This document shows positions 12,359 to 29,661 of a stretch of DNA of 64,000 nucleotides, piece after piece. Source of the stretch: Verrucomicrobiota bacterium (GTDB lineage Bacteria; Verrucomicrobiota; Verrucomicrobiia; Opitutales; Opitutaceae); assembly GCA_016871755.1 (NCBI GenBank), contig VHCJ01000007.1, positions 62,001 through 126,000 of the forward strand. The letters are read 5' to 3'. The notes beneath the pieces were generated by a model. That model was not told the origin of the DNA. It saw only the letters and a list, made by a program, of their open reading frames with translations, and searched no databases. Within the stretch, counting starts at the first letter, position 1. Every line of letters starts with the position of its first letter. The position numbers and the translations under genes were made by a program.

Positions 12359-12649
12359 CAAGGCAGCGAATGAGGTGGCGTCCGGGACGCAAGCCTCCTG
12401 CGGCATGAGCTCGCTGCAGTGCGGTGCGGTGCGGAACAACACGGTGCCGTGCGGTGCGCCCTGCCACGTGGGGCCGGGCGGGTCAATCGGTAGGCTTGCG
12501 TCGTCGCCTCCGTCGCCACGCCGCGGCGCGGCGCGGCGTGGCGCATCGCGACGGTGCCCCCCGTCGAACCGTCGCGCTCAGCGCCGTTTGGCTTGCCGTG
12601 CGGGATCGGGTGCGGTGCATTTTCGTCTCCCGTCATCTCCTTTCCCCGC
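12359..12649. other. Divergent intergenic region with GTGCG runs and a 12-bp palindrome
   Basis: No gene is seen between the divergent abgT and PVC haem-protein genes. The stretch at 12417-12458 repeats GTGCG-like pentamers. A perfect 12-bp inverted repeat (CGCCACGCCGCG at 12514-12525, CGCGGCGTGGCG at 12532-12543) has a 6-nt loop and no T-run, so it is not a classical terminator. Confidence 0.6.
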
Positions 12650-15430
12650 ATGACTGACTCGCTCCGCCCCCTGGTCCGCTCGTTCCTTCGTCCGTCGCGT
12701 CACCTCGCACCCCGGTGGGTCGCGGCCGGGTGCGTCGGTGCCGTCACCGCGCTGGCCCAGCCGGCCCCGGCGCCTGCGCCGGCGTCGTCGTCCACCGCCG
12801 TCGCGGCGTCGGCGGCGAAGGATCCGGAGATCGTGACGACGGATCTCTTCACGCTGCCCGAGGGTCTTGAGATCACGGTGTGGGCGCACACGCCGCTGGT
12901 CCGCAACCCGACCAACATCGACTTCGACGAGCGCGGCCGCCTCTGGGTGGCCGAGGGCGTGAACTACCGGAGCAACGCCCAGCGTCAGCCGGCGGGCGAC
13001 CAGATCCTCGTCCTCGAGGACACCGACGGCGACGGCCGCGCGGATCGCTCCGACCGCTTCGTGCAGGAGCCCGGCTTCATCGCTCCGCTCGGCGTCGCGG
13101 TGCTCGGCGACAAGATCGTGGTCTCCCAGACGCCCGACCTGCTGGTCTTCACCGACGTCGACGGCGACCGCCGCTTTGACCCGGCCAAGGATCGTCGCGA
13201 GGTGCTCCTCACCGGTTTCAACGGCAAGAACCACGACCACAGCCTGCACTCGGTCACCGCCGGTCCCGATGGCCTATGGTACTGGAACGCGGGCAACAAT
13301 GGCGCGCTCTTCACGGACCGCTCCGGCAAGACCTTCCGGGTCGGCAGCCCCTACGATCCGAGGGGCAAGGAGCCCCTGTTCAACCCGACGCTCATCGCCG
13401 GACAGCGCAGCGACGATGGCCGCGTCTGGATCGGAGGCTTCATGGCCCGCATGAATCCGGACGGCACCAACGTCACGATCATCGGCCACAACTTCCGCAA
13501 CAGCTACGAACAGTCGATCACCTCCTTCGGCGATGTGTTTCAGTCGGACAACGACGATCCGCCGGCGTGTCGCGTGAGCTTCGTGCTGGAGTATGGCAAC
13601 GCGGGCTTCGCCTCGCTGGATGGCCAGCGTTCCTGGCAGGCGGATCGCCGTCCGGGGCAGGACATCCCGACTGCCCAGTGGCGGCAGGAGGACCCGGGTT
13701 CGATGCCGCCGGGCGATGTCTACGGCGGTGGTTCGCCGACCGGCGTGGCCTTCTACGAAAACGGCGCGCTCGATCCGAAGTGGAATGGCCTGCTGCTCGC
13801 GTGCGAGGCCGGCCGGAACGTGATCTTCGGCTACCTCCCGAGGCCCGAGGGCGCGGGATTCCGCCTCGATCGCATGGACTTCCTCACCTCGAACCCGATG
13901 AAGCAGTTCGCGGGCTCGGACTTCGTCCAAGGCAAGGTCAACCGCGAGCTCCGCACGTGGTTTCGCCCCTCGGACGTGATCGTTGGTCCCGACGGAGCGA
14001 TCTACGTTGCGGACTGGTTCGATCCGCGCGTCGGCGGCCACGCCGACTTCGACAAGGCGACCAGCGGCACCATCTACCGGATCGCGCCGAAGGGCTTCCG
14101 CTCAAAGGTGCCGACGTTCGATCTCGCGACCACGGCCGGGCAGATCGAGGCCCTGCGCAGTCCCGCCGTGAACGTCCGCAACCTCGGCTTCACGCGTCTC
14201 AAGGCGCAGGGTGAGGCGGCGGTTCCCGCGGTGGCGGCGCTGTTGTCCGATTCCAACCGCTTCATTGCCGCGCGCGCCGTCTGGCTGCTCGCGCAGATGG
14301 GCCCCGCCGGGGTCGCGCGTGTGCGCCCGCTGCTCAACGCCAAGGACGATGCGCAGCGCCTCCTCGCCCTCCGCGCCCTCCGCCGTGCGGGCATCGACAT
14401 TCTGGAAAACGCCCGCCGTCTCGTGACGGATCCGTCCCCGGCCGTGCGGCGGGAAGTGGCGGTGGTGCTGCGCGACCTTCCGGCGGCCGACAGCGTGCCA
14501 CTGCTCGTGCAACTGGCGCGCCAGTATGACGGCCAGGATCGCACCTACCTCGAAGCGTGGGGCATCGGCTGCGAAGGCAAGGCGTCGGAGGTGTACGCGG
14601 CGCTCCTCGCGGACCAGCCGGCCAAGCCGGAGTCGTGGACCCCGGCGTTCGCGCGACTCGCGTGGCGACTGCACCTTCCGGAGTCGGCGGCCGCCTTCCG
14701 CGCCCGGGCGTTGGCTGCGTCGCTCTCGCCGGAACTGCGCAAGGAAGCGATGACGGCGCTCGCCTTCATGCCCTCCGCCGAGGCGGTTGCGGCGATGGTG
14801 GAGCTGGCGACCAGTAAGGAGTTTTCGGATACGGAGACCGCGAACTGGTGGCTCCGCAACCGCATGGGCAACCTCTGGGAGCCCTTCGACGTCGGCGGGG
14901 CGATGGAGGCGCGCGGCCTGCCGAACCCGGAGAAGGCGGTGCTCACGTCCTCGATCATCCCGGAGCCCCCGGCGACGGCCTCGCCCGGACCCGGCGTTCC
15001 TGAGATTCTGGAGCTCTCCGGCGACGCGGCCCGCGGCAAGGATGCGGTCGCGGCCTGTTACCTCTGCCACAAGATCGGCCGCGTCGGGAACGATTTCGGA
15101 CCGAACCTGACGGTGTTTGGCCGACAGCAGCCGCGCGAGGTGATTGCCCAGGCGATCCTCTATCCCTCGGCGGACATTTCGCACGGCTTTGACGGCAGCC
15201 GGATCGAGACCCACGACGGCGTGGTCATCGACGGCATGATCCTCTCGCAGCGCAGCCCGATGATCGTGCGCATGATGGGTGGGACCACGCAGCAGATCTG
15301 GCGCAAGCGGATCAAGTCGATCACGCGCCACGAACGCTCGCTGATGTTCACCCCGCAGCAACTCGGCCTGACCCCGCAGTCCGTGGCCGACATCATCGCC
15401 TACCTGCAGTCGGACCTGATCGAGCGCTGA
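12650..15430 (+). CDS. PVC-type haem-binding dehydrogenase with C-terminal cytochrome c
   Basis: A 926-residue exported protein. After a signal peptide and Ala/Pro linker comes a propeller-type membrane-bound dehydrogenase domain (about residues 60-480, starting with FTLPEGLEITVWAHTPLVRN). HEAT-like repeats follow (about residues 490-740), then a C-terminal cytochrome c with one CxxCH (CYLCH near residue 803) inside the PVC haem-binding module (ACYLCHKIGRVGNDFGPNLT). This architecture is characteristic of Verrucomicrobia and Planctomycetes. It probably oxidises a sugar or alcohol in the periplasm and passes electrons to its haem; the substrate is unknown. The chosen ATG opens the signal peptide, and 32 more codons are open upstream. 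Confidence 0.88.
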   Translation: MTDSLRPLVRSFLRPSRHLAPRWVAAGCVGAVTALAQPAPAPAPASSSTAVAASAAKDPEIVTTDLFTLPEGLEITVWAHTPLVRNPTNIDFDERGRLWVAEGVNYRSNAQRQPAGDQILVLEDTDGDGRADRSDRFVQEPGFIAPLGVAVLGDKIVVSQTPDLLVFTDVDGDRRFDPAKDRREVLLTGFNGKNHDHSLHSVTAGPDGLWYWNAGNNGALFTDRSGKTFRVGSPYDPRGKEPLFNPTLIAGQRSDDGRVWIGGFMARMNPDGTNVTIIGHNFRNSYEQSITSFGDVFQSDNDDPPACRVSFVLEYGNAGFASLDGQRSWQADRRPGQDIPTAQWRQEDPGSMPPGDVYGGGSPTGVAFYENGALDPKWNGLLLACEAGRNVIFGYLPRPEGAGFRLDRMDFLTSNPMKQFAGSDFVQGKVNRELRTWFRPSDVIVGPDGAIYVADWFDPRVGGHADFDKATSGTIYRIAPKGFRSKVPTFDLATTAGQIEALRSPAVNVRNLGFTRLKAQGEAAVPAVAALLSDSNRFIAARAVWLLAQMGPAGVARVRPLLNAKDDAQRLLALRALRRAGIDILENARRLVTDPSPAVRREVAVVLRDLPAADSVPLLVQLARQYDGQDRTYLEAWGIGCEGKASEVYAALLADQPAKPESWTPAFARLAWRLHLPESAAAFRARALAASLSPELRKEAMTALAFMPSAEAVAAMVELATSKEFSDTETANWWLRNRMGNLWEPFDVGGAMEARGLPNPEKAVLTSSIIPEPPATASPGPGVPEILELSGDAARGKDAVAACYLCHKIGRVGNDFGPNLTVFGRQQPREVIAQAILYPSADISHGFDGSRIETHDGVVIDGMILSQRSPMIVRMMGGTTQQIWRKRIKSITRHERSLMFTPQQLGLTPQSVADIIAYLQSDLIER

Positions 15431-15530: not shown

Positions 15531-17780
15531 TCAGAACTCGTCGTAGGCGATCTGCTGCGGTGTCACGCCGAGTTCCGCGAGCATCCGGGTGCAGGCCTTG
15601 ATCATCATCGGCGGGCCGCAGAGGTAGTATTCGACGGCGAGCGGGTTCGGATGGTCCTTCAGGTACTGCTGCAGCACGACCTCGTGGATCATCCCGGTCG
15701 GGCCGGTCCAGCCGTCCTCCGACAGCGGGGACGAGAGCGCGACCTCGAACCGGAAGTTGCCGTGCTGCGCCGCGAGGCCGCGGAAGTAGTCCTCGTAGAA
15801 CAGCTCCTGCCGCGACCGCGCGCCGTACCAGTAGCTGACCCGGCGGGCGGTGCGCTCGGTCTCGAAGAGGTGCGAGAGGTGGGCGCGGAGCGGAGCCATG
15901 CCGGCGCCGCCGCCGATGTAGATCATTTCCTTCTGGGTGGGCTTGACGTGGAAGTCGCCGAACGGGCCGATGGCAGTGACCGTGTCGCCCGGCTTAAGGT
16001 TGAACATGTACGCCGAGCCGACGCCGGGCGGGCAGTCCTGACCCGGGGGTGGTGTGGCGATGCGGACGTTGAGACGGAGCGTGCGCTCGGTCCGCTGGTT
16101 GCTGGCGAGCGAGTAGTTGTTGCGGCGGCCGCCCTGCGGGTGATGGGCGACGAGATCGAACACGTGCTGCCGTTCCCAGACCTCGGCGTACGGAGCCGGG
16201 ATGTCGAACTCGCGGAAACGCAGGTTCTCGTAGGCGGGGATGTCGAACTGGAGGTAGTCGCCCAGCGTGAAGGCGACTGTCCCGGCGTCGTCGAGGGGTT
16301 CGAGGATGAGTTCCTTGATGAAGGTGGCGACGCTGCGGTTGCTCACGACCCGGAGGCGGTAGGTGCGCTCGGGCCGGGCGCCGGCGCCGCCGGGGCGGGC
16401 GACGTTGAGATGGATGCGGCCGTGGCGTTCCTCGATTGGGTAGGTGGCGAGGCCGCGGCAGACCGGTGGGCGCGCGGGCGAGCCGTCGGCGAGGTGGAAG
16501 CGACCGTTGTGCTTCGGGCATTCGATGATGCCGTCCTTGACGAGGCCGCCGGCGAGGTGGGTGTTGCCGTGGATGCAGATGCCGTCGGTGGCGAAGAGCT
16601 TCCCGGCGCCGTCGCGGATGAGCGCATAGGTCCGCTTCCCGTGGTCGAACCGCAGAACGTCGCTGGGGCCGAGGTCGCCCGCAGCGCAGACTTCGATCCA
16701 GCCCGCGGCGTCGGGCCGGGTTCCGCCGCTGATGCCGGCGGCGCCGGTCCGGGGCTTGGGCGCGGGGAGCTGGCGTTTCACATAGTGCGCCGGGTCCTTT
16801 ACTTGGCGAAGGAGGTTCGGGACGATCTCCTTCCACGCGGCGAGCAGGCTCGGATACGGCGTCGGCATGTCGTCCTTCACGATCGCGTGGAGTTCCGGGA
16901 GGCGGTGGTAGGGCACCAGCGGGAACATGTGATGCTCCACGTGGTAGTTCATGTTCCAGTACAGATACCGGTGGATGGCGTTCATGTAGACCGTCCGGCA
17001 GTTGAGCCGGTGGTCGAGGACGTTCTCCGCGAGGCCGGCGTGCTGGGTCTTGCCGTAAAGCACCATGAGCCAGGAGCCGAGGAGGTTGGTCAGGCCGACG
17101 TAGAGCAGCGGCAGGATGCTTTGCGTGACGACGGCCAGGGCGATGACGCCGGCGTAGATCGCGACGTAGATGCGGGCGCGGACGTAGATCTTCGGGAATT
17201 CGCCCTCGGGGATGTACGTCTTCTCTTCCGGCAGCATGCGGCCGGTCGCGTGCGTAAGGATCTTCCGGAAGTAGACCGGGTAGACGCCGATGTTGAAGAA
17301 CGACAGGATCTGCCTTCGCAGGTGCGGCGGGCGCGGCACGGCGATCTCGGGATCGCGGCCGACGATGATCGTGTCGCTGTGGTGGCGCGTGTGGCTCCAG
17401 CGCCAGACCGTGGACTCGCGCATGACCATGAACGACGCGATCTCGTACAGCGCGTTGTTCATCCAGTCCGTCCGGAACGCGGTGCCGTGCTGCGACTCGT
17501 GCCAGCGGGAGTCGGACGTCGACGCATAGAGCACCGCGTACACCGCGTAGGGCAGGGCGGCCCACCACGTCGGCCAGAGCACGTAGGTGGCGTAGCCGGA
17601 GCCGAGGATCAGGGCGAACCAGAGGATCGTGTCGCGAATGGCCGGACCGTTGCGGCGCTCGAGGAGCTTGCGCATCGTCTCGCGCGGGACAGGGCACTGG
17701 TACCAGTCGGCCTCGGCGAGGCCCTTCTCCACGGCGCGGCGCGCGTTCTCGCCGACGAGGCTGTAATCCAACGTCATCAT
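15531..17780 (-). CDS. Fatty-acid-desaturase / Rieske / NqrF-like reductase fusion
   Basis: A 749-residue single polypeptide with three modules. Residues 1-330 form a membrane di-iron desaturase/hydroxylase with histidine boxes HESQH (94-98), HTRHH (130-134) and HVEHH (280-284) and several membrane segments. Residues 355-465 are a Rieske [2Fe-2S] domain with CIH (402-404) and CPKH (421-424). Residues 470-749 are an FAD/NAD(P)H reductase like the C-terminal part of NqrF, with NYSLAS (flavin site), GGGAGMAP (nucleotide site), CGPPMM and a terminal YDEF. The order suggests a self-sufficient oxygenase: NAD(P)H to FAD to Rieske to di-iron centre. Rhizobial MocD/MocE supplies a desaturase-like enzyme and a Rieske partner as separate proteins. 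The substrate is unknown. Confidence 0.85.
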   Translation of the reverse strand: MMTLDYSLVGENARRAVEKGLAEADWYQCPVPRETMRKLLERRNGPAIRDTILWFALILGSGYATYVLWPTWWAALPYAVYAVLYASTSDSRWHESQHGTAFRTDWMNNALYEIASFMVMRESTVWRWSHTRHHSDTIIVGRDPEIAVPRPPHLRRQILSFFNIGVYPVYFRKILTHATGRMLPEEKTYIPEGEFPKIYVRARIYVAIYAGVIALAVVTQSILPLLYVGLTNLLGSWLMVLYGKTQHAGLAENVLDHRLNCRTVYMNAIHRYLYWNMNYHVEHHMFPLVPYHRLPELHAIVKDDMPTPYPSLLAAWKEIVPNLLRQVKDPAHYVKRQLPAPKPRTGAAGISGGTRPDAAGWIEVCAAGDLGPSDVLRFDHGKRTYALIRDGAGKLFATDGICIHGNTHLAGGLVKDGIIECPKHNGRFHLADGSPARPPVCRGLATYPIEERHGRIHLNVARPGGAGARPERTYRLRVVSNRSVATFIKELILEPLDDAGTVAFTLGDYLQFDIPAYENLRFREFDIPAPYAEVWERQHVFDLVAHHPQGGRRNNYSLASNQRTERTLRLNVRIATPPPGQDCPPGVGSAYMFNLKPGDTVTAIGPFGDFHVKPTQKEMIYIGGGAGMAPLRAHLSHLFETERTARRVSYWYGARSRQELFYEDYFRGLAAQHGNFRFEVALSSPLSEDGWTGPTGMIHEVVLQQYLKDHPNPLAVEYYLCGPPMMIKACTRMLAELGVTPQQIAYDEF

Positions 17781-17889: not shown

Positions 17890-19191
17890 TCAAGGCGTGT
17901 AGTACGAGCCCATCGCGGCGACGATCGCAGCGCGGGCGGCGGCGGGGTCGATCACGCCGTTGTGGCGCCAGAGGATCTGGCCGCCGGGGGCGACGAGGAT
18001 CGTGTGCGGCACCGGGCCGGGCCATTCGGGATCGAGCACCGCCGCGAGGCGCTCCTGCGAGCCTTCGGTCGTGAGATAATGGTTCGTGCGACGGCCCTCA
18101 CGTTCGACGGATTTCTGCCGGCGCCCGCTCAGCCCGGCACCCTGTTTCTGGAGGAAAGCCTGGGCCCGGGCGAGATCCTTGGGGTCGTCGAGGCTTACGC
18201 TGATGAAGTCGAATTCCCGCATGTCGTACTGGCGGGCGATTTCGACGAGGTCCGGGAATTCCTCTACGCACGGCGCGCACCAGGTCGCCCAGACGTTGAT
18301 GAGGCGGTGCTTGCCGGTCGGGTTGGCGCGGAGCGCGGCGAGGCCGTCGGCGTCGATCTTTTCCACGGTCACGGGGGTCCGGTCCCACGCGGCGGCGGCG
18401 GCGACGTGGCCGGCGCGCTTCTCGCGCCACTTGGTCGAGCAGCCGTGCGGCTTGGTCCGCTCGACCGGCACGGGGCGGCCATCGAGCAGGGCGAAGATCG
18501 CGTTGCGGGCGTCGGGGTGGCGGATCGTGGCTTCGTCGACGAAGCGGGAATCATCGAAGCGGCCCGCGTAGCGGAGGCGGCGCTCCTTGTCGAAAATGAA
18601 GACGTGCGGCGTGGCGAGGCAGCCGTAGGCCCGCGCGACCTGCTGGGTCTCGCCGTCGTAGAGGTACGGGAAGTCCCAGCCGTTCTTGGCCGCGTAGGGC
18701 TTCATGTCCTCGAACGAATCGTTGTACTCGCCGTAACCGAGCTCGTCGATGCTCAGGCCCTCGGGATGGTTGGGGTTGATGGCGACGAGCGCGAAGCTGC
18801 GCGAACGGAGTTCGTTGCGGAGCGCTTGGAGGCGTCGCTCGATTGCGTGCGAGGTCGGGCAGTGATTGGACGTGAAGAGGACCATCAGCACATCCGGCCC
18901 GGCGAAGTCGCTGAGCTTCCACGTGCGGCCATCGATTCCCGGAAGCGCGAAGTCCGGCGCCGCGTCGCCGATCTGCAGCGTTCGCAGCGATGGCGGGTGA
19001 CCCGAGGCGTCGAGCTTCTCCAGCGCGGGTGCCGCCACGGCGGCGTTGGCGGCGCGGCTGGAGGGGGGCGTGGCGACGATGGCGGCGACGACCGCCGCGA
19101 CGCAGAGGGCCGCGGCGAGGGTCCGCTTGGCTTGGGCGGTGGGCGTCACGGTGGTCGCGCGGCGGAGGAAGGAAGCGTGGAACGAGGGCAT
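17890..19191 (-). CDS. Exported protein with two thioredoxin folds (redoxin + TlpA-like)
   Basis: A 433-residue protein with a signal or anchor helix at about residues 24-42. The first thioredoxin fold (about 72-240) begins with the peroxiredoxin/redoxin motif IGDAAPDFALPGIDG. It has a single Cys in the usual active-site place (NHCPTS, Cys111) and a second Cys before the cis-proline (GCLATPH, Cys191). The second fold (about 275-430) has a complete TlpA-type WCAPC (304-308). Two domains in one chain suggest periplasmic disulfide reduction or peroxide handling; the substrate is unknown. It lies 109 bp upstream of the desaturase fusion, in the same orientation. Confidence 0.8.
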   Translation of the reverse strand: MPSFHASFLRRATTVTPTAQAKRTLAAALCVAAVVAAIVATPPSSRAANAAVAAPALEKLDASGHPPSLRTLQIGDAAPDFALPGIDGRTWKLSDFAGPDVLMVLFTSNHCPTSHAIERRLQALRNELRSRSFALVAINPNHPEGLSIDELGYGEYNDSFEDMKPYAAKNGWDFPYLYDGETQQVARAYGCLATPHVFIFDKERRLRYAGRFDDSRFVDEATIRHPDARNAIFALLDGRPVPVERTKPHGCSTKWREKRAGHVAAAAAWDRTPVTVEKIDADGLAALRANPTGKHRLINVWATWCAPCVEEFPDLVEIARQYDMREFDFISVSLDDPKDLARAQAFLQKQGAGLSGRRQKSVEREGRRTNHYLTTEGSQERLAAVLDPEWPGPVPHTILVAPGGQILWRHNGVIDPAAARAAIVAAMGSYYTP

Positions 19192-19584: not shown

Positions 19585-20937
19585 ATGAGCATCCGGCATC
19601 CGTCTTTCCCCGCGGCCGTCGTTCTGGCCCTGAGCCTGGCCGCCGCCGCCGTCGCGCAGACCCGTCCGATCGCCTTCCAGGGCGGGCGGATCCTTCCGGT
19701 GGAGGGCGCGCCGATTGAGCGGGGGGTATTGATCGTGCAGGATGGCAAGATCGTCGCGGTGGGTCCGCAGGACTCCACGCCGATTCCCTCCGGCGCCGAG
19801 GTGCGGGATGTATCCGGGAAAGTGCTGATGCCAGGGTTGGTGGACTCCCACAGCCACATTGGTGGCGGCAGCGGTGTCGGGGCTGATGGCTCCGGGCCGA
19901 TCCAGCCGGAAGTCCGTGCGCTCGATGGCATCGACGTCGGCTCGTCGTCCATCGCCAAGGCCCGGGCCGGCGGCATCACCACGGTGAATGTCATGCCGGG
20001 CTCCGGCCACCTCATCAGCGGCCAGACGCTGTACTTGAAGCTGCGCCCGGCGCGGACGATCGACGATTTGCTGATCCGCCTGCCCGATGGCTCGCCGGCT
20101 GGCGGCCTCAAGATGGCGAACGGCACCAATCCGCGGCGCGACGCGCCGTTCCCCGGGACGCGCGGCAAGGCCGCCTCGCTGGTGCGGGAGCGCTATGTCG
20201 CGGCGCAGGAATATCAGGCGAAGGTCGCCCGCGCGAAGGACGATCCCGAGAAGCGTCCGGCCCGCGACCTTGCCCTCGAACAACTCGGTGAAGTGCTCGC
20301 CGGTCGCCGGGTGGTGCAGCATCACAGCCACCGCCACGACGACATCATGACGGTGCTGCGGTTGTCCAAGGAGTTCGGTTTCAAGGTCGTCCTCCATCAC
20401 GTCAGCGAAGGCTGGAAAGTGGCGGACGAAATCGCCGCGGCCGGCGTCGCCTGCTCGATCATCTACGTGGACAGTCCCGGGGGGAAGCTGGAGGCCCGCG
20501 ACATGGACATCCGCATCGGCGCGATCATGGAGAAGGCGGGCGTGCGGGTGGGTTTCCACACCGACGACCCGATCACGGATTCGCGCCTGTTCCTCCGCTC
20601 GGCCGGCATGGCGGTGCGGGGCGGGATGTCGCGCGACGGCGCGCTGGCCGGACTCACGCTGGCCAACGCGGAAATCCTCGGCCTGCAAGACCGGATCGGC
20701 TCGCTCACGCCGGGCAAGGACGCCGACTTCGTCGTCCTCTCCGGCGATCCCCTCAGCGTCTACACCCACGTCGAGCAGACCTGGATCGAAGGCGCGCTGG
20801 CGTTCGACCGCAGCCGCCCTGCCGACCACCTGTGGGCGGTCGGAGGCCCCGGTGCCGGCGATCCGCTGCGCCCGCATTACTGCTGCTTCGGCAACGCCTG
20901 GGGCGTGATCGCGGCCGCCAACGCCGCCGCGCAATGA
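19585..20937 (+). CDS. Exported amidohydrolase with complete metal-binding site
   Basis: A 450-residue amidohydrolase of the imidazolonepropionase/prolidase-like group, with a signal peptide ending at VAQ (about residue 25). Metal-ligand motifs are present: HSH (89-91) after GLVD, an HHSHRHDD cluster (246-253), HH (271-272) and HTDDP (325-329). The C-terminal GKDADFVVLSGDPL closes the family's small beta domain. It should hydrolyse an amide or cyclic amide outside the cytoplasm; the substrate is unknown. The frame is open far upstream, but the ATG at 19585 is the one that opens a signal peptide. The paralogue downstream follows after 52 bp. Confidence 0.88.
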   Translation: MSIRHPSFPAAVVLALSLAAAAVAQTRPIAFQGGRILPVEGAPIERGVLIVQDGKIVAVGPQDSTPIPSGAEVRDVSGKVLMPGLVDSHSHIGGGSGVGADGSGPIQPEVRALDGIDVGSSSIAKARAGGITTVNVMPGSGHLISGQTLYLKLRPARTIDDLLIRLPDGSPAGGLKMANGTNPRRDAPFPGTRGKAASLVRERYVAAQEYQAKVARAKDDPEKRPARDLALEQLGEVLAGRRVVQHHSHRHDDIMTVLRLSKEFGFKVVLHHVSEGWKVADEIAAAGVACSIIYVDSPGGKLEARDMDIRIGAIMEKAGVRVGFHTDDPITDSRLFLRSAGMAVRGGMSRDGALAGLTLANAEILGLQDRIGSLTPGKDADFVVLSGDPLSVYTHVEQTWIEGALAFDRSRPADHLWAVGGPGAGDPLRPHYCCFGNAWGVIAAANAAAQ

Positions 20938-20989
20938 GTCGGCCCCGCTGCGCCGCTGCCACCCTGACCCTCGTCCGCTCCTGCCTCCG

Positions 20990-22315
20990 ATGAAGACCTT
21001 CTCTTTCCTCCGCGTCCTTCCCTCCCTCTCCCTCGCTCGGCCCTCGGCCCGCTGCGTCGCGCGAACGCTCGCGCCGGCCTTGCTGGCACTGATGATTGCG
21101 GTGCCGGCGTCGTCTGCCGCCCCCGAGGCGGCGTCGCCGGCGCCCGCCGCACCCGTGAGCGCGCCGTCGGTCGCGATCCGCGGTGACACCGTGTATCCGG
21201 TCAACGGATCACCCCTGAAGGACGGGCTGGTCCTGATCCGGGAGGGTCGCATTGTCTACGTGGGTCCGGCGGCGGGCCAGTCCTACGGAGCGGACGTCCG
21301 CGAACTCCGGGCCGCGGTCGTGGTGCCCGGCTTGGTCGATGCGCGGGCGACGGTCGGCGTGTCCGGCATGCTCAATCAACCCCATGATCAGGAGCAGGTG
21401 GACCGCTCGGCGCCGCTGCAGCCGGAACTGCGGGCGGTCGACGCTTACAACGCCCGCGATGAACTCGTGGCGTATGTCCGCGCGCGTGGCGTCACGACGG
21501 TGCACACCGGCCATGGCCCGGGCGTGACGATCTCGGGTCAGACCCTTGTCGTGAAGACGAAGGGTCGGACGGCGGAGGCGGACGTGCTGCGCCCGGCGGC
21601 GATGATCGCCGCCACGCTCGGGGCGGATGCGACGACGGCGGATCGTGGCAAGTCGCCCGGCACCCCGGCGAAGGCGGTGGCGCTCCTGCGCACGGAACTG
21701 ATCAAGGCGAAGGAGTATGCGGACAAGCGCGCGAAGCTGCCGGAGGACAAACGTCCGCCCCGCGACCTCCGGATGGAGGCGCTCGGCCGCGCGCTCGACG
21801 GCTCGCAGCCCCTGTTGATTTCGGTGGACCGCGGCCGGGACATCCTGGCGGCCCTGCGCGTCGCGCGGGAGTTCAACCTGAAGATCGTGCTCGAAGGCTG
21901 CGCCGAGGCGCCCCTCGTGCTCGATGAGATCAGGACCAGCGGCTTTCCGGTGGTGCTGCATCCCACGATGGAGCGCAGCTTCGGCACGCGCGAGAACCTG
22001 AGCATGGAGACGGCGGCGGTGCTGCGCCGCGCCGGCATTCCCTTCGCGATCCAGAGTGGCTTCGAGGATTACGTGCCGAAGACCCGCATCGTGCTGTACG
22101 AGGCGGCGGTCGCGGCCGGGCAGGGCCTTGACCGCGACGCCGCGCTGGCGGCGATCACCCTCGACGCGGCGCGGATCATCGGCGTCGCCGACCGTGTCGG
22201 CTCGCTCGAGGTGGGCAAGGATGGCGATGTCGCCCTCTACGACGGCGACCCCTTTGAGTACGTGACCCGCTGCGTGGGCGTGGTGATCGACGGGGTGGTC
22301 TACCCGGGCGAGTAG
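20990..22315 (+). CDS. Amidohydrolase-fold paralogue lacking metal ligands
   Basis: A 441-residue exported paralogue of the preceding gene with the same domain order and ending (VGKDGDVALYDGDPFEYVTRC). The ligand positions are replaced. HSH after GLVD becomes ARA (GLVDARATVG, 114-123), the HHSHRHDD cluster becomes SVDRGRD, LHH becomes LEG, and FHTDDP becomes IQSGFED. It therefore looks catalytically inactive, and may be a regulatory or structural partner of the upstream enzyme, perhaps in a hetero-oligomer. The pair is very probably co-transcribed. Its fold assignment is secure; its role is inference. Confidence 0.85.
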   Translation: MKTFSFLRVLPSLSLARPSARCVARTLAPALLALMIAVPASSAAPEAASPAPAAPVSAPSVAIRGDTVYPVNGSPLKDGLVLIREGRIVYVGPAAGQSYGADVRELRAAVVVPGLVDARATVGVSGMLNQPHDQEQVDRSAPLQPELRAVDAYNARDELVAYVRARGVTTVHTGHGPGVTISGQTLVVKTKGRTAEADVLRPAAMIAATLGADATTADRGKSPGTPAKAVALLRTELIKAKEYADKRAKLPEDKRPPRDLRMEALGRALDGSQPLLISVDRGRDILAALRVAREFNLKIVLEGCAEAPLVLDEIRTSGFPVVLHPTMERSFGTRENLSMETAAVLRRAGIPFAIQSGFEDYVPKTRIVLYEAAVAAGQGLDRDAALAAITLDAARIIGVADRVGSLEVGKDGDVALYDGDPFEYVTRCVGVVIDGVVYPGE

Positions 22316-26235: not shown

Positions 26236-26397
26236 GGAGTTTGCCCGCAGGCGGTAACAACGGTGAGACCCTCGGGTTAAGGGTGCGTGGCACCCGCGTG
26301 ACGATCCGGCGAAAAGGGGAGTCCGGAAGCGCTTGGGACTGCGACTTCCCGCTTGCCGCTGGCGGGAGGCGGGCCAACCCTCCGGACACTCACGCCC

Positions 26398-29300
26398 ATG
26401 CCCAAGCGTACCGACCTCAAGTCCATCCTCATCATCGGCGCCGGTCCCATCGTGATCGGACAAGCCTGCGAGTTCGACTACTCCGGCACGCAGGCGTGCA
26501 AGGCCCTGAAGGAAGAGGGTTACCGCGTGATCCTGGTGAATTCGAATCCGGCGACGATCATGACGGATCCCGAGTTCGCAGACGTCACGTACATCGAGCC
26601 GCTGACGGTCGAGTTCCTGGAGAAGATCATTGCCGCGGAGCGGCCCTCGGCGCTGCTGCCCACGCTGGGCGGCCAGACGGCGCTGAATCTCTCGATGGAC
26701 CTGTTCAAGAAGGGCATCCTCGAGAAATACGGCGTCGAGATGATCGGCGCGAAGCCGGATGCCATCTCCAAGGGCGAGGACCGCGAATTGTTCAAGCAGG
26801 CGATGATCAAGATCGGTCTCGACGTGGCGCGCTCGCGCACGGTCAAGACGATGGACGAGGCCCGGGCGGCGGCCGAGATGCTCGGCGCCTTCCCGCTCAT
26901 CATCCGTCCCTCCTTCACCCTCGGCGGCTCCGGCGGCGGCATCGCGTACAACCGCGAGGAATTCGAGCGCATCTGCGCGAACGGACTCGACCTGTCCCCG
27001 GTGCACGAAGTGCTCGTCGAGGAGTGCCTCCTCGGCTGGAAGGAGTACGAGATGGAGGTGATGCGCGACTACAAGGACCAGTGCGTCGTGATCTGCTCGA
27101 TCGAGAACTTCGACCCGATGGGCGTGCACACCGGTGACTCGATCACGGTGGCGCCCTCGATGACGCTGACCGACAAGGAGTACCAGGTCATGCGCGACGC
27201 CTCGTTCGCGGTGATCCGCGAGATCGGCGTCGAGACCGGTGGCTCCAACATCCAGTTCTCCGTCGATCCCCAGACCGGCCGCATGGTCGTGATCGAGATG
27301 AATCCCCGCGTCTCGCGCTCCTCGGCGCTCGCGTCGAAGGCGACCGGCTTCCCGATTGCGAAGATCGCGGCGAAGTTGGCGGTGGGCTACTCGCTGGATG
27401 AACTCCGCAACGACATCACGCGCCTGACGCCGGCCTCGTTTGAGCCGACGATTGACTACGTGGTGACGAAGATCCCGCGGTTCACCTTCGAGAAGTTCCC
27501 GGATGCGGATCCCACGCTGACCTCGGCGATGAAGTCGGTGGGTGAGGCGATGGCGATTGGCCGCACCTTCAAGGAGTCGGTGCAGAAGGCGCTGCGTTCC
27601 CTCGAAGTGGGCGCCCGCGGCTTCGGCGGCGGCGGCAAGTGGGGTGGCGATGAACTGCCGGAGCGCTCGGTGATCGTGGCGAAGCTCGCGACGCCGAATG
27701 CGGAGCGCATCTTCTTCCTGCGTTACGCCTTCCTCGCCGGGTTCACGGTCGAGGAGATTTTCGAGCTGACCAAGATCGATCCGTGGTTCCTGCACCAGCT
27801 GCGGGAAATCTACGAGATGGAGCAGGACCTGAAGCGCCACCGCCTGCCCTCCGCCCCGGCGGATGCGCGCCCGGCGGCGACGCCGGAGCTGTTGCGCCGC
27901 GCGAAGCAGTTCGGGTTCTCCGACGTGCAGCTGGCGCACGTCCTGAAGACGGATTTCGCGACGATGCGCGCCGAGCGCAAGCGCCTCGGCATCCAGACCA
28001 CGTACCGGCTCGTCGACACCTGTGCGGCCGAGTTCGAGGCGTTCACGCCGTATTATTATTCCAGCTACGGCGATGAGAGTGAAGTCATGCCGGGCGGCAA
28101 GAAGCGGAAGATCATGATCCTCGGCGGCGGTCCGAACCGCATCGGCCAGGGCATCGAATTCGACTACTGCTGCGTGCACGCGAGCTTCGCGCTCCGCGAG
28201 ATCGGCTTTGAGACGGTGATGGTGAACTCGAACCCCGAGACGGTTTCGACGGACTACGACACCTCGGACCGCCTCTACTTCGAGCCGCTGACGCTCGAGG
28301 ACGTGCTGGAAGTCTACCAGCAGGAAGGCTGCGACGGCGCGATCGTGCAGTTCGGCGGCCAGACCCCGCTCAACCTCGCGACGGCGCTGAAGGCGGACGG
28401 CGTGAACATCATCGGCACCTCGCCCGAGAGCATCGAGGCGGCGGAGGACCGGAAACTCTTCGCCAAGATCCTCGACAAGGTGGGCCTGCGTCAGCCGGCG
28501 AACCGCACGGCGATGAACCAGGCCGATGCCCTGACGGCGGCGCGCGAGCTCGGCTTCCCCGTGCTCCTGCGCCCGTCCTTCGTCCTCGGCGGCCGCGGCA
28601 TGTTCATCGTCTACAGCGAGGAGGAATTCCGCGCGGTGGTCCGCCAGGCCTTCGAGGTCATGCCGGACAAGCCGGTGCTGATCGACGACTTCCTTGAGGA
28701 TGCGATCGAACTCGATGTCGACTGCATCGCCGACGGCGAGAACAGCGTGATCGGCGGCATGCTCGAGCACATCGAATTCGCCGGCGTGCATTCCGGTGAC
28801 GCAGCGATGGTGATGCCGCCGCACACCCTCTCGCCCGCGATGCTGGACACGGTCCGTGCGGCGACCCACGCGCTCGCCCGCGAGCTCAAGGTCATCGGCC
28901 TGATGAACGTCCAGTTCGCGATCAAGGACCAGCAGCTCTACGTCCTCGAAGTGAACCCGCGCGCCTCGCGCACCGTCCCGTTCGTCGCCAAGGCGATCGG
29001 CGTGCCGATGGCCAAGCTCGCCGCGAAGGTGATGACCGGGCTCAAGCTCAAGGACCTCGGCTTCACCCGCGAGCACACCCCGCGCCACTGGTGCGTGAAG
29101 GAGGCGGTCTTCCCGTTCGTGCGTTTCCCCGGCGCGACGATCGTGCTCGGCCCCGAGATGCGCTCCACCGGTGAAGTCATGGGCCTCGACGAGGATCTCG
29201 GCGTGGCCTTCGCGAAGGCGCAGGCGGCGGCCAAGCCCGGCCTGCCCACCGGCGGCAACGTCTTCCTCTCGGTCAAGGACGCCGACAAGCTCCGGGCGGT

Positions 29301-29661
29301 GGGGCTGGCGCGTCAGCTCGAGGAACTCGGGTTCTCGCTCTATTCCACGGGCGGCACGGCGAAGGTCCTGGCCGAGGCCGGCATCAACGTCGCGAAGCTG
29401 GCGAAGATCGGGGAAGGCCGCCCGACGGCGGTCGACCTGATCAAGAACGGCCAGATCCAGCTCGTGATCAACACGCCGGCCGGGATGATCCCGCGCAAGG
29501 ACGAGAACAAGATCCGCTCGGCGGCGTACGCCCACAGCGTGTGCATCATGACCACGCTCTCGGGCGCGCAGGCGGCGGTCGAGGGCATCAAGGCTCTCCG
29601 CAACAAGCGGGTCGGCGTAAAGCCGATCCAGCAGTACCGCGGCAATGTGACGCTCGTCTGA
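26398..29661 (+). CDS. carB: Carbamoyl-phosphate synthase large subunit
   Basis: A 1087-residue enzyme of the usual CarB length. Two ATP-grasp halves are visible, each opening with a nucleotide-fold motif ([21 protein letters not shown] near residue 10 and [19 protein letters not shown] near residue 575). They are joined by the oligomerisation domain, and a C-terminal MGS-like allosteric domain begins near [10 protein letters not shown]. It makes carbamoyl phosphate from bicarbonate, ammonia and ATP for pyrimidine and arginine synthesis. The small glutaminase subunit carA is not in the window. The ATG at 26398 matches the family N-terminus [16 protein letters not shown]. Confidence 0.97.

Follow-up and report, generated by a model that had tools for sequence, protein, structure and literature searches.

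The locus described here raises the question of why a second copy of an amidohydrolase, from which the metal site has gone, is kept directly beside an apparently complete one. In the window, the 64,000-nucleotide stretch of DNA that was analysed, gene A (19585..20937, 450 aa) and gene B (20990..22315, 441 aa) form a + strand tandem, with both frames intact and a gap of 52 nt. The encoded proteins are 36% identical across B residues 33-435, and a search of the source genome with B returned A and B as the sole matches (E 0.001). In amidohydrolases the metal ligands are an HxH motif on strand 1, a His on each of strands 5 and 6, and an Asp on strand 8. By alignment to 3ooq, the best solved relative of both proteins (E 7.1e-62 for A and 1.1e-39 for B), A has H89 and H91 (HSH, 19849..19857, in DSHSHIG) on strand 1, H247 (20323..20325, in QHHSHRHDD) on strand 5, H272 (20398..20400, in VVLHHVSE) on strand 6 and D327 (20563..20565, in FHTDDP) on strand 8. 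The residues of B at the same positions are R119 and T121 (R-A-T, 21344..21352, in DARATVG), S278 (21821..21823, in LISVDRGRD), G303 (21896..21898, in VLEGCAE) and G357 (22058..22060, in IQSGFED), all again on the + strand. The five positions are probably the metal ligands, because they fit the established amidohydrolase pattern; on this alignment A has the full set of a metal-dependent amidohydrolase (5/5) and B has none of it (0/5). The original prediction of tandem amidohydrolases, the intact one followed by the stripped one, was therefore borne out for both frames.

Both A and B scored above cut-off with PF01979 and PF07969, A more highly, and all sampled proteins of such pairs were read as amidohydrolases by Pfam. 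No NCBIfam model reached its cut-off among the best 25 of 48 rows for A or the 20 rows for B. An AlphaFold2 model of B (pLDDT 83.2, pTM 0.82) was matched to 3ooq in a structure search with Z 48.7 and rmsd 2.1 over 376 aligned residues, and the next matches lay near Z 26, including the prolidase 3n2c and the Lys/Arg carboxypeptidase 3mtw. The high Z score suggests that the fold of B is complete, as had been claimed from the letters alone, and by its predicted fold B belongs to the amidohydrolase superfamily. Both proteins begin with a signal-like N-terminus, residues 1-25 of A (19585..19659, +) and a longer segment of low pLDDT, residues 1-44, in B (20990..21121, +), with boundaries drawn by eye. 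Scored with a home-made hydrophobicity rule (limit 1.9), A gave 2.62 and B 2.58; both pass, and export of the pair, which had also been proposed, stands as a prediction.

A match at E 1e-20 was found in 19 of 95 near genomes, the window's own included, and each of the 19 had an intact gene next to a stripped one. Four of these gave one match at this threshold, yet the second gene was present in the adjoining DNA, and no genome with a single member of the pair was found among the 95 (E 1e-20). Ten of the 19 carried the compact form, which is that of the window; the remaining nine carried a wide form, in which a second stripped domain (X) precedes intact A within one chain of ∼950-1150 aa and a stripped gene B comes next. 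Within the window's genus the pair was present in four of 10 genomes and the other six gave no match (two of the six being less than 90% complete); the pair therefore seems to have been gained or lost as a unit. One near genome that already has a compact pair holds a third, distant member (G039:C19:6296-7507, 28% to B).

Further afield, when GTDB species were scanned using the intact domain of the wide form as query, at least 590 stretches matched, of which tblastn confirmed 571, and 80 loci, selected without regard to partner, were retained. By their record titles these loci come from Planctomycetota, Verrucomicrobia, Gammaproteobacteria, Acidobacteriota, Bacteroidetes, Ignavibacteriae, Marinimicrobia, KSB1 and further groups. 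A was present in 80/80, a stripped downstream B in 76/80 and a full X in 74/80. Three of the four loci without B stop at a contig edge. The fourth, L125 (6225-7650), extends 1.4 kb past the intact gene with B absent, and directly past the stop its sequence no longer follows that of its near copy, L113; this exception is either real or assembly-made. In each of seven whole genomes the three domains lay together, with no additional match (E 1e-20). At E 1e-40, matches were obtained in 94/148 genomes of Bacteroidota (the phylum of L114), 86/148 of Planctomycetota (the phylum of L128), 29/288 of the window's phylum and 8/140 of the class of L069 (Undibacterium, placed by GTDB in Gammaproteobacteria). 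Genomes with one match only numbered 0/94, 8/86, 18/29 and 1/8 respectively. The 18 from the window's phylum all have single-copy genes with 5/5 ligands, and in the window's class all 11 matched genomes of the phylum scan gave two adjacent matches. Two or more family domains were found in 94/148 sampled Bacteroidota and 78/148 sampled Planctomycetota genomes, with domain classes assigned for part of these two scans, among the matches listed.

When 428 domains from 175 distinct loci were aligned, 175 had all five ligands, none had three or four, and 253 had two or fewer. The complete domains comprised 119 intact A, 38 compact A (L222, a single-copy gene, is counted here by its best score) and 18 single-copy domains; the stripped domains comprised 116 B, 37 compact B and 100 X. 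Every locus held exactly one intact domain (175/175), accompanied by two stripped domains in 97 loci, one in 59 and none in 19; these 19 are the single-copy genes, and the other 156 loci hold one or two stripped domains. Stripped partners were present in 79/79 loci of the pattern scan and 19/19 near-genome loci, the other 59 loci having mostly been chosen for their paired look (L165-L222 and L224, L222 excepted, were taken from match tables as apparent pairs, triples and fusions). The 80-locus scan used two peptide patterns, one containing the strand-5 His, and its intact domain was named by the strand-1 motif and ALGEN. Intactness in that scan is therefore partly by construction; the occurrence of exactly one intact domain per locus, the remaining ligands and the state of the partner are free of it. 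L151 and L160, which lie at the same places as L067 and L081, and L125, whose intact domain is shared with L113, were excluded from the 428 domains and are still inside the tallies of N-termini, order and fusions given below.

The intact gene was upstream in 32/32 compact tandem pairs. Taken from longest frames, by which overlap is possibly overstated, B overlaps the end of A in 24 of the 32 and starts 1-32 nt after its stop in eight, and among 100 wide A/B pairs 72 overlap, 16 lie within 60 nt and 12 lie beyond, to a maximum of 274 nt. The lone row reading B then A is L182, where two frames overlap at the edge of a contig. Intact and stripped domains were fused in a single frame in 21 loci, all in the Planctomycetota scan. 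Nine are X-A-B fusions (L165-L170, L178, L179 and L184; 1264-1663 aa), chains of three amidohydrolase domains with a metal site in the middle one only; eight are A-B fusions (858-926 aa), and four are of compact type (L176, L211, L212, open at one end, and L221; 855-928 aa). The last group scored best as compact A plus compact B, and in each half of the tree L176 and L211 were placed next to the compact clades. The pair thus proved conserved, constant in order and in some genomes fused, when checked as had been proposed with the original prediction. A model of the X-A chain of L095 (pTM 0.83) would fit a defined packing of the stripped on the intact domain, and the top-ranked matches in a structure search with this model were to its A half. 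Between X and A the same model (L095 1956-5006) has a run of beta-strands (residues ∼463-560), possibly an extra sandwich domain linking the two. Signal-like N-termini were scored in 32/33 compact A and 30/32 compact B, in 68/81 X-A chains, 67/100 wide-form B and 5/8 A-B fusions, and in 0/18 single-copy relatives; by these counts the compact pair looks exported and the single-copy forms cytoplasmic.

Selection on the two genes was compared over the mature region in four genomes of the genus (Nei-Gojobori, six pairs per gene), with estimates that are rough where dS exceeds 1. The dN/dS values were 0.041-0.082 for A and 0.066-0.146 for B, the B value being 1.3-2.1 times that of A, and the matched B frames contained no internal stops. 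B is under purifying selection, looser than that on A. The constraint that the original prediction had expected of B is present, and the decay that would have undone it is not.

Site loss, predicted fold, purifying selection, tandem order, the two-class ligand split, fusions and pairing together form the observed basis on which B is probably a dedicated non-catalytic partner, structural or regulatory, of the exported amidohydrolase A in a pseudo-symmetric hetero-oligomer. The signal-like N-termini of the compact pairs and the new near-invariant residues that 37 compact B carry in their old catalytic loops also speak for this reading. A would be an exported metal-dependent amidohydrolase that presumably performs the hydrolysis, and B a pseudoenzyme dedicated to it, sharing its fold with the metal site gone. 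The ancestor may have been a homo-oligomer of identical active subunits, whose places in the complex would now be occupied by B (and X), and B could stabilise A, cap or shape its pocket, or hold substrate. Selection would then retain B since it assembles with A, and A would depend on B. The recurrence of the intact and stripped pairing across several phyla suggests that the stripped twin is needed and non-catalytic, and the selection for a non-catalytic partner that had been proposed from this pair alone gains support from dN/dS well below 1, the conserved ordered pair and the fusions. Because prolidase- and carboxypeptidase-like amidohydrolases follow 3ooq among the structural neighbours of the B model, the substrate may be guessed to be peptide-like or N-acyl and to lie outside the cytoplasm. 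The broader proposal, that this is an old, undescribed complex in which an exported amidohydrolase works only when joined by one or two of its own stripped copies, in tandem or in a single chain, that supply part of its pocket or control it, has about an even chance of being right. Several results count against a hetero-oligomer: adjacency and fusion are also compatible with two enzymes of one pathway, B has the higher dN/dS, the intact gene of L125 has no stripped neighbour, single-copy relatives are partnerless, and the wide form shows signal-like N-termini less consistently.

B could instead be a ligand-binding or metal-free catalytic protein acting in the same pathway as A with no complex between them, which we consider unlikely. 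Tandem genes are commonly in one pathway, and near-invariant residues of B's own lie at the old catalytic loops, namely G.E.YVPK at strand 8, which in the window's B opens with G357, and G..N...D past strand 1 in the 37 compact B; these loops would appear to be re-used, not blank. The fusion of the two domains in 21 loci argues against such independence, and so do the neighbourhoods. Clustering of the 596 ORFs that flank 101 loci gave as its largest group an ABC-type ATPase, present at 10/101 loci and at scattered distances, and a PfkB kinase lay downstream of the pair at 5 loci, all of them from the window or its near relatives. No gene is common to the neighbourhoods beyond local synteny, and therefore no pathway is visible. 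More doubtful still is that B has built a new metal site from other residues and is catalytically active with altered chemistry. The first strand-1 His is present in 23/37 compact B and the strand-5 His in 46/118 wide-form B, X has Asp or Glu at the strand-5 position in 60/102 and Glu at the second strand-1 position in 39/102, and an HTGH stretch, the sole hint of another site in compact B, is retained in at least 75% of them. Against this, the strand-6 His is mostly Gly (32/37 compact B, 111/118 B and 92/102 X), the strand-8 Asp is Gly in 36/37 compact B, and stripped domains hold at most two of the five ligands. The claim that all sites were lost is accurate for the window's B (0/5) and too strong for its type, in which 24/37 retain one of the five. 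The 37 compact B nevertheless have no conserved ligand set, and no replacement set of His, Asp, Glu or Cys, at the five former positions, so that the alternative ligands named earlier as the finding that would overturn a non-catalytic B have only the small opening left by HTGH elsewhere in the protein.

The chance that B is a decaying duplicate hitch-hiking beside A is negligible. Its dN/dS above that of A is what such a copy would give, but the values are far below 1, and this together with the stop-free frames led to the rejection of decay, to which the fusions and the pairs in several phyla are also opposed. A young duplicate confined to a single genome was likewise rejected, as the pair occurs across the order and several phyla. 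A separate matter is the origin of B. In a rooted 64-row tree, the outgroup branches of which are long, compact and wide intact domains were sisters (99/94), B and X clustered (100/99), and every stripped domain fell on the same side of one branch, weakly (76/92). Two separate losses of the site, as read from a quick tree, were discarded, one change being enough on the unrooted tree. Read most simply, a single old duplication would have given an intact and a stripped line, with a later second stripped copy, X, and then fusions. It is less likely that the window's B arose when A was duplicated independently within the compact lineage, its likeness to the wide stripped domains being convergent. 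Forcing compact A and compact B into one clade (log-likelihood lower by 32.9) was not rejected by the AU test on the 64 rows (p-AU 0.064), but the best trees place compact A with wide A and, on the weakly supported branch, all stripped domains on one side. A separate duplication would be compatible with the hetero-oligomer explanation.

Compared with known systems, the closest protein to the hetero-oligomer proposed for A and B is 3ooq, a Thermotoga maritima amidohydrolase whose gene is presumably TM0814. It is the best sequence match of A and B and the best fold match of B; it retains the residues aligned with A's ligands, which B is without, and its entry has one kind of chain, unlike the A/B pair. 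No paper on 3OOQ or TM0814 was found in the open PubMed Central literature. A chain that works like B is pDHO of the Pseudomonas aeruginosa ATCase, described as an inactive dihydroorotase-homologous chain required for ATCase activity, alongside fungal pDHO domains without zinc ligands (PMC7053772). B fits this kind in having lost its ligands and kept its fold; the partner of pDHO is an unrelated transcarbamoylase, whereas that proposed for B is its intact paralogue. Among the 12 matches of B to solved structures none was a dihydroorotase, and the next after 3ooq had E 2.1e-06, so dihydroorotases do not appear to be the nearest relatives of B, as they would be for a member of the pDHO family. 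The AibH1H2 hydroxylase heterodimer is reported to have a catalytic AibH2, which resembles PtmU3, a protein repurposed from the amidohydrolase superfamily, and an AibH1 that is more likely structural (PMC12141560). AibH1 is still metal-binding, whereas B is without the superfamily ligands, and the chemistry is hydroxylation. AibH1H2 was absent from the best 50 structural matches of the B model, a list too short to exclude kinship. The apicomplexan PanK1/PanK2 paralogue heteromer, for which one complete active site is proposed (PMC8366970), is a parallel to A/B in how it works, the enzyme and organisms being unrelated.

No description of a paired intact and stripped amidohydrolase family was found in open PubMed Central papers. 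A dead partner of amidohydrolase fold is a known kind of protein; the A/B/X family, its breadth, the two-class split and the fusions appear undescribed in that literature. By Pfam these are amidohydrolases, yet 253 of the 428 sampled domains are missing the ligand set that marks a metal enzyme. Should the stripped copies prove to be obligate partners, an intact subunit expressed alone would fail or mislead, and this, if true, may partly explain the lack of a known function. The frequency of the family in the sampled Bacteroidota and Planctomycetota would then mark a common yet unrecognised enzyme system, and the natural series of single-copy, tandem, X-A and X-A-B forms offers material on the passage from homo-oligomers to hetero-oligomers with dead subunits.

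Other features of the proteins and of the window were also recorded. The C-terminal tail of A (20840-20937) has a Cys pair (HYCCFGN), the intact proteins of L029 and L012 likewise have tails with Cys pairs, and several X-A chains have Cys/His-rich tails. A defence role for the locus was dismissed, PADLOC giving no match. Running divergently from gene A, a frame at 17890-19191 (-) has an AhpC/TSA-type domain and a second thioredoxin-like domain (WCAPC). The frame at 15531-17780 (-) combines a fatty-acid desaturase domain, a Rieske domain and an FAD/NAD reductase, and reads like a desaturase or hydroxylase carrying its own electron chain. By eye, the long frame at 12554-15430 (+) resembles a beta-propeller dehydrogenase-type protein that has a repeat section and, close to its end, a CXXCH haem motif, and the 1102 aa frame at 26353-29661 (+), ∼4 kb past gene B, resembles a carbamoyl-phosphate synthase large subunit (CarB).
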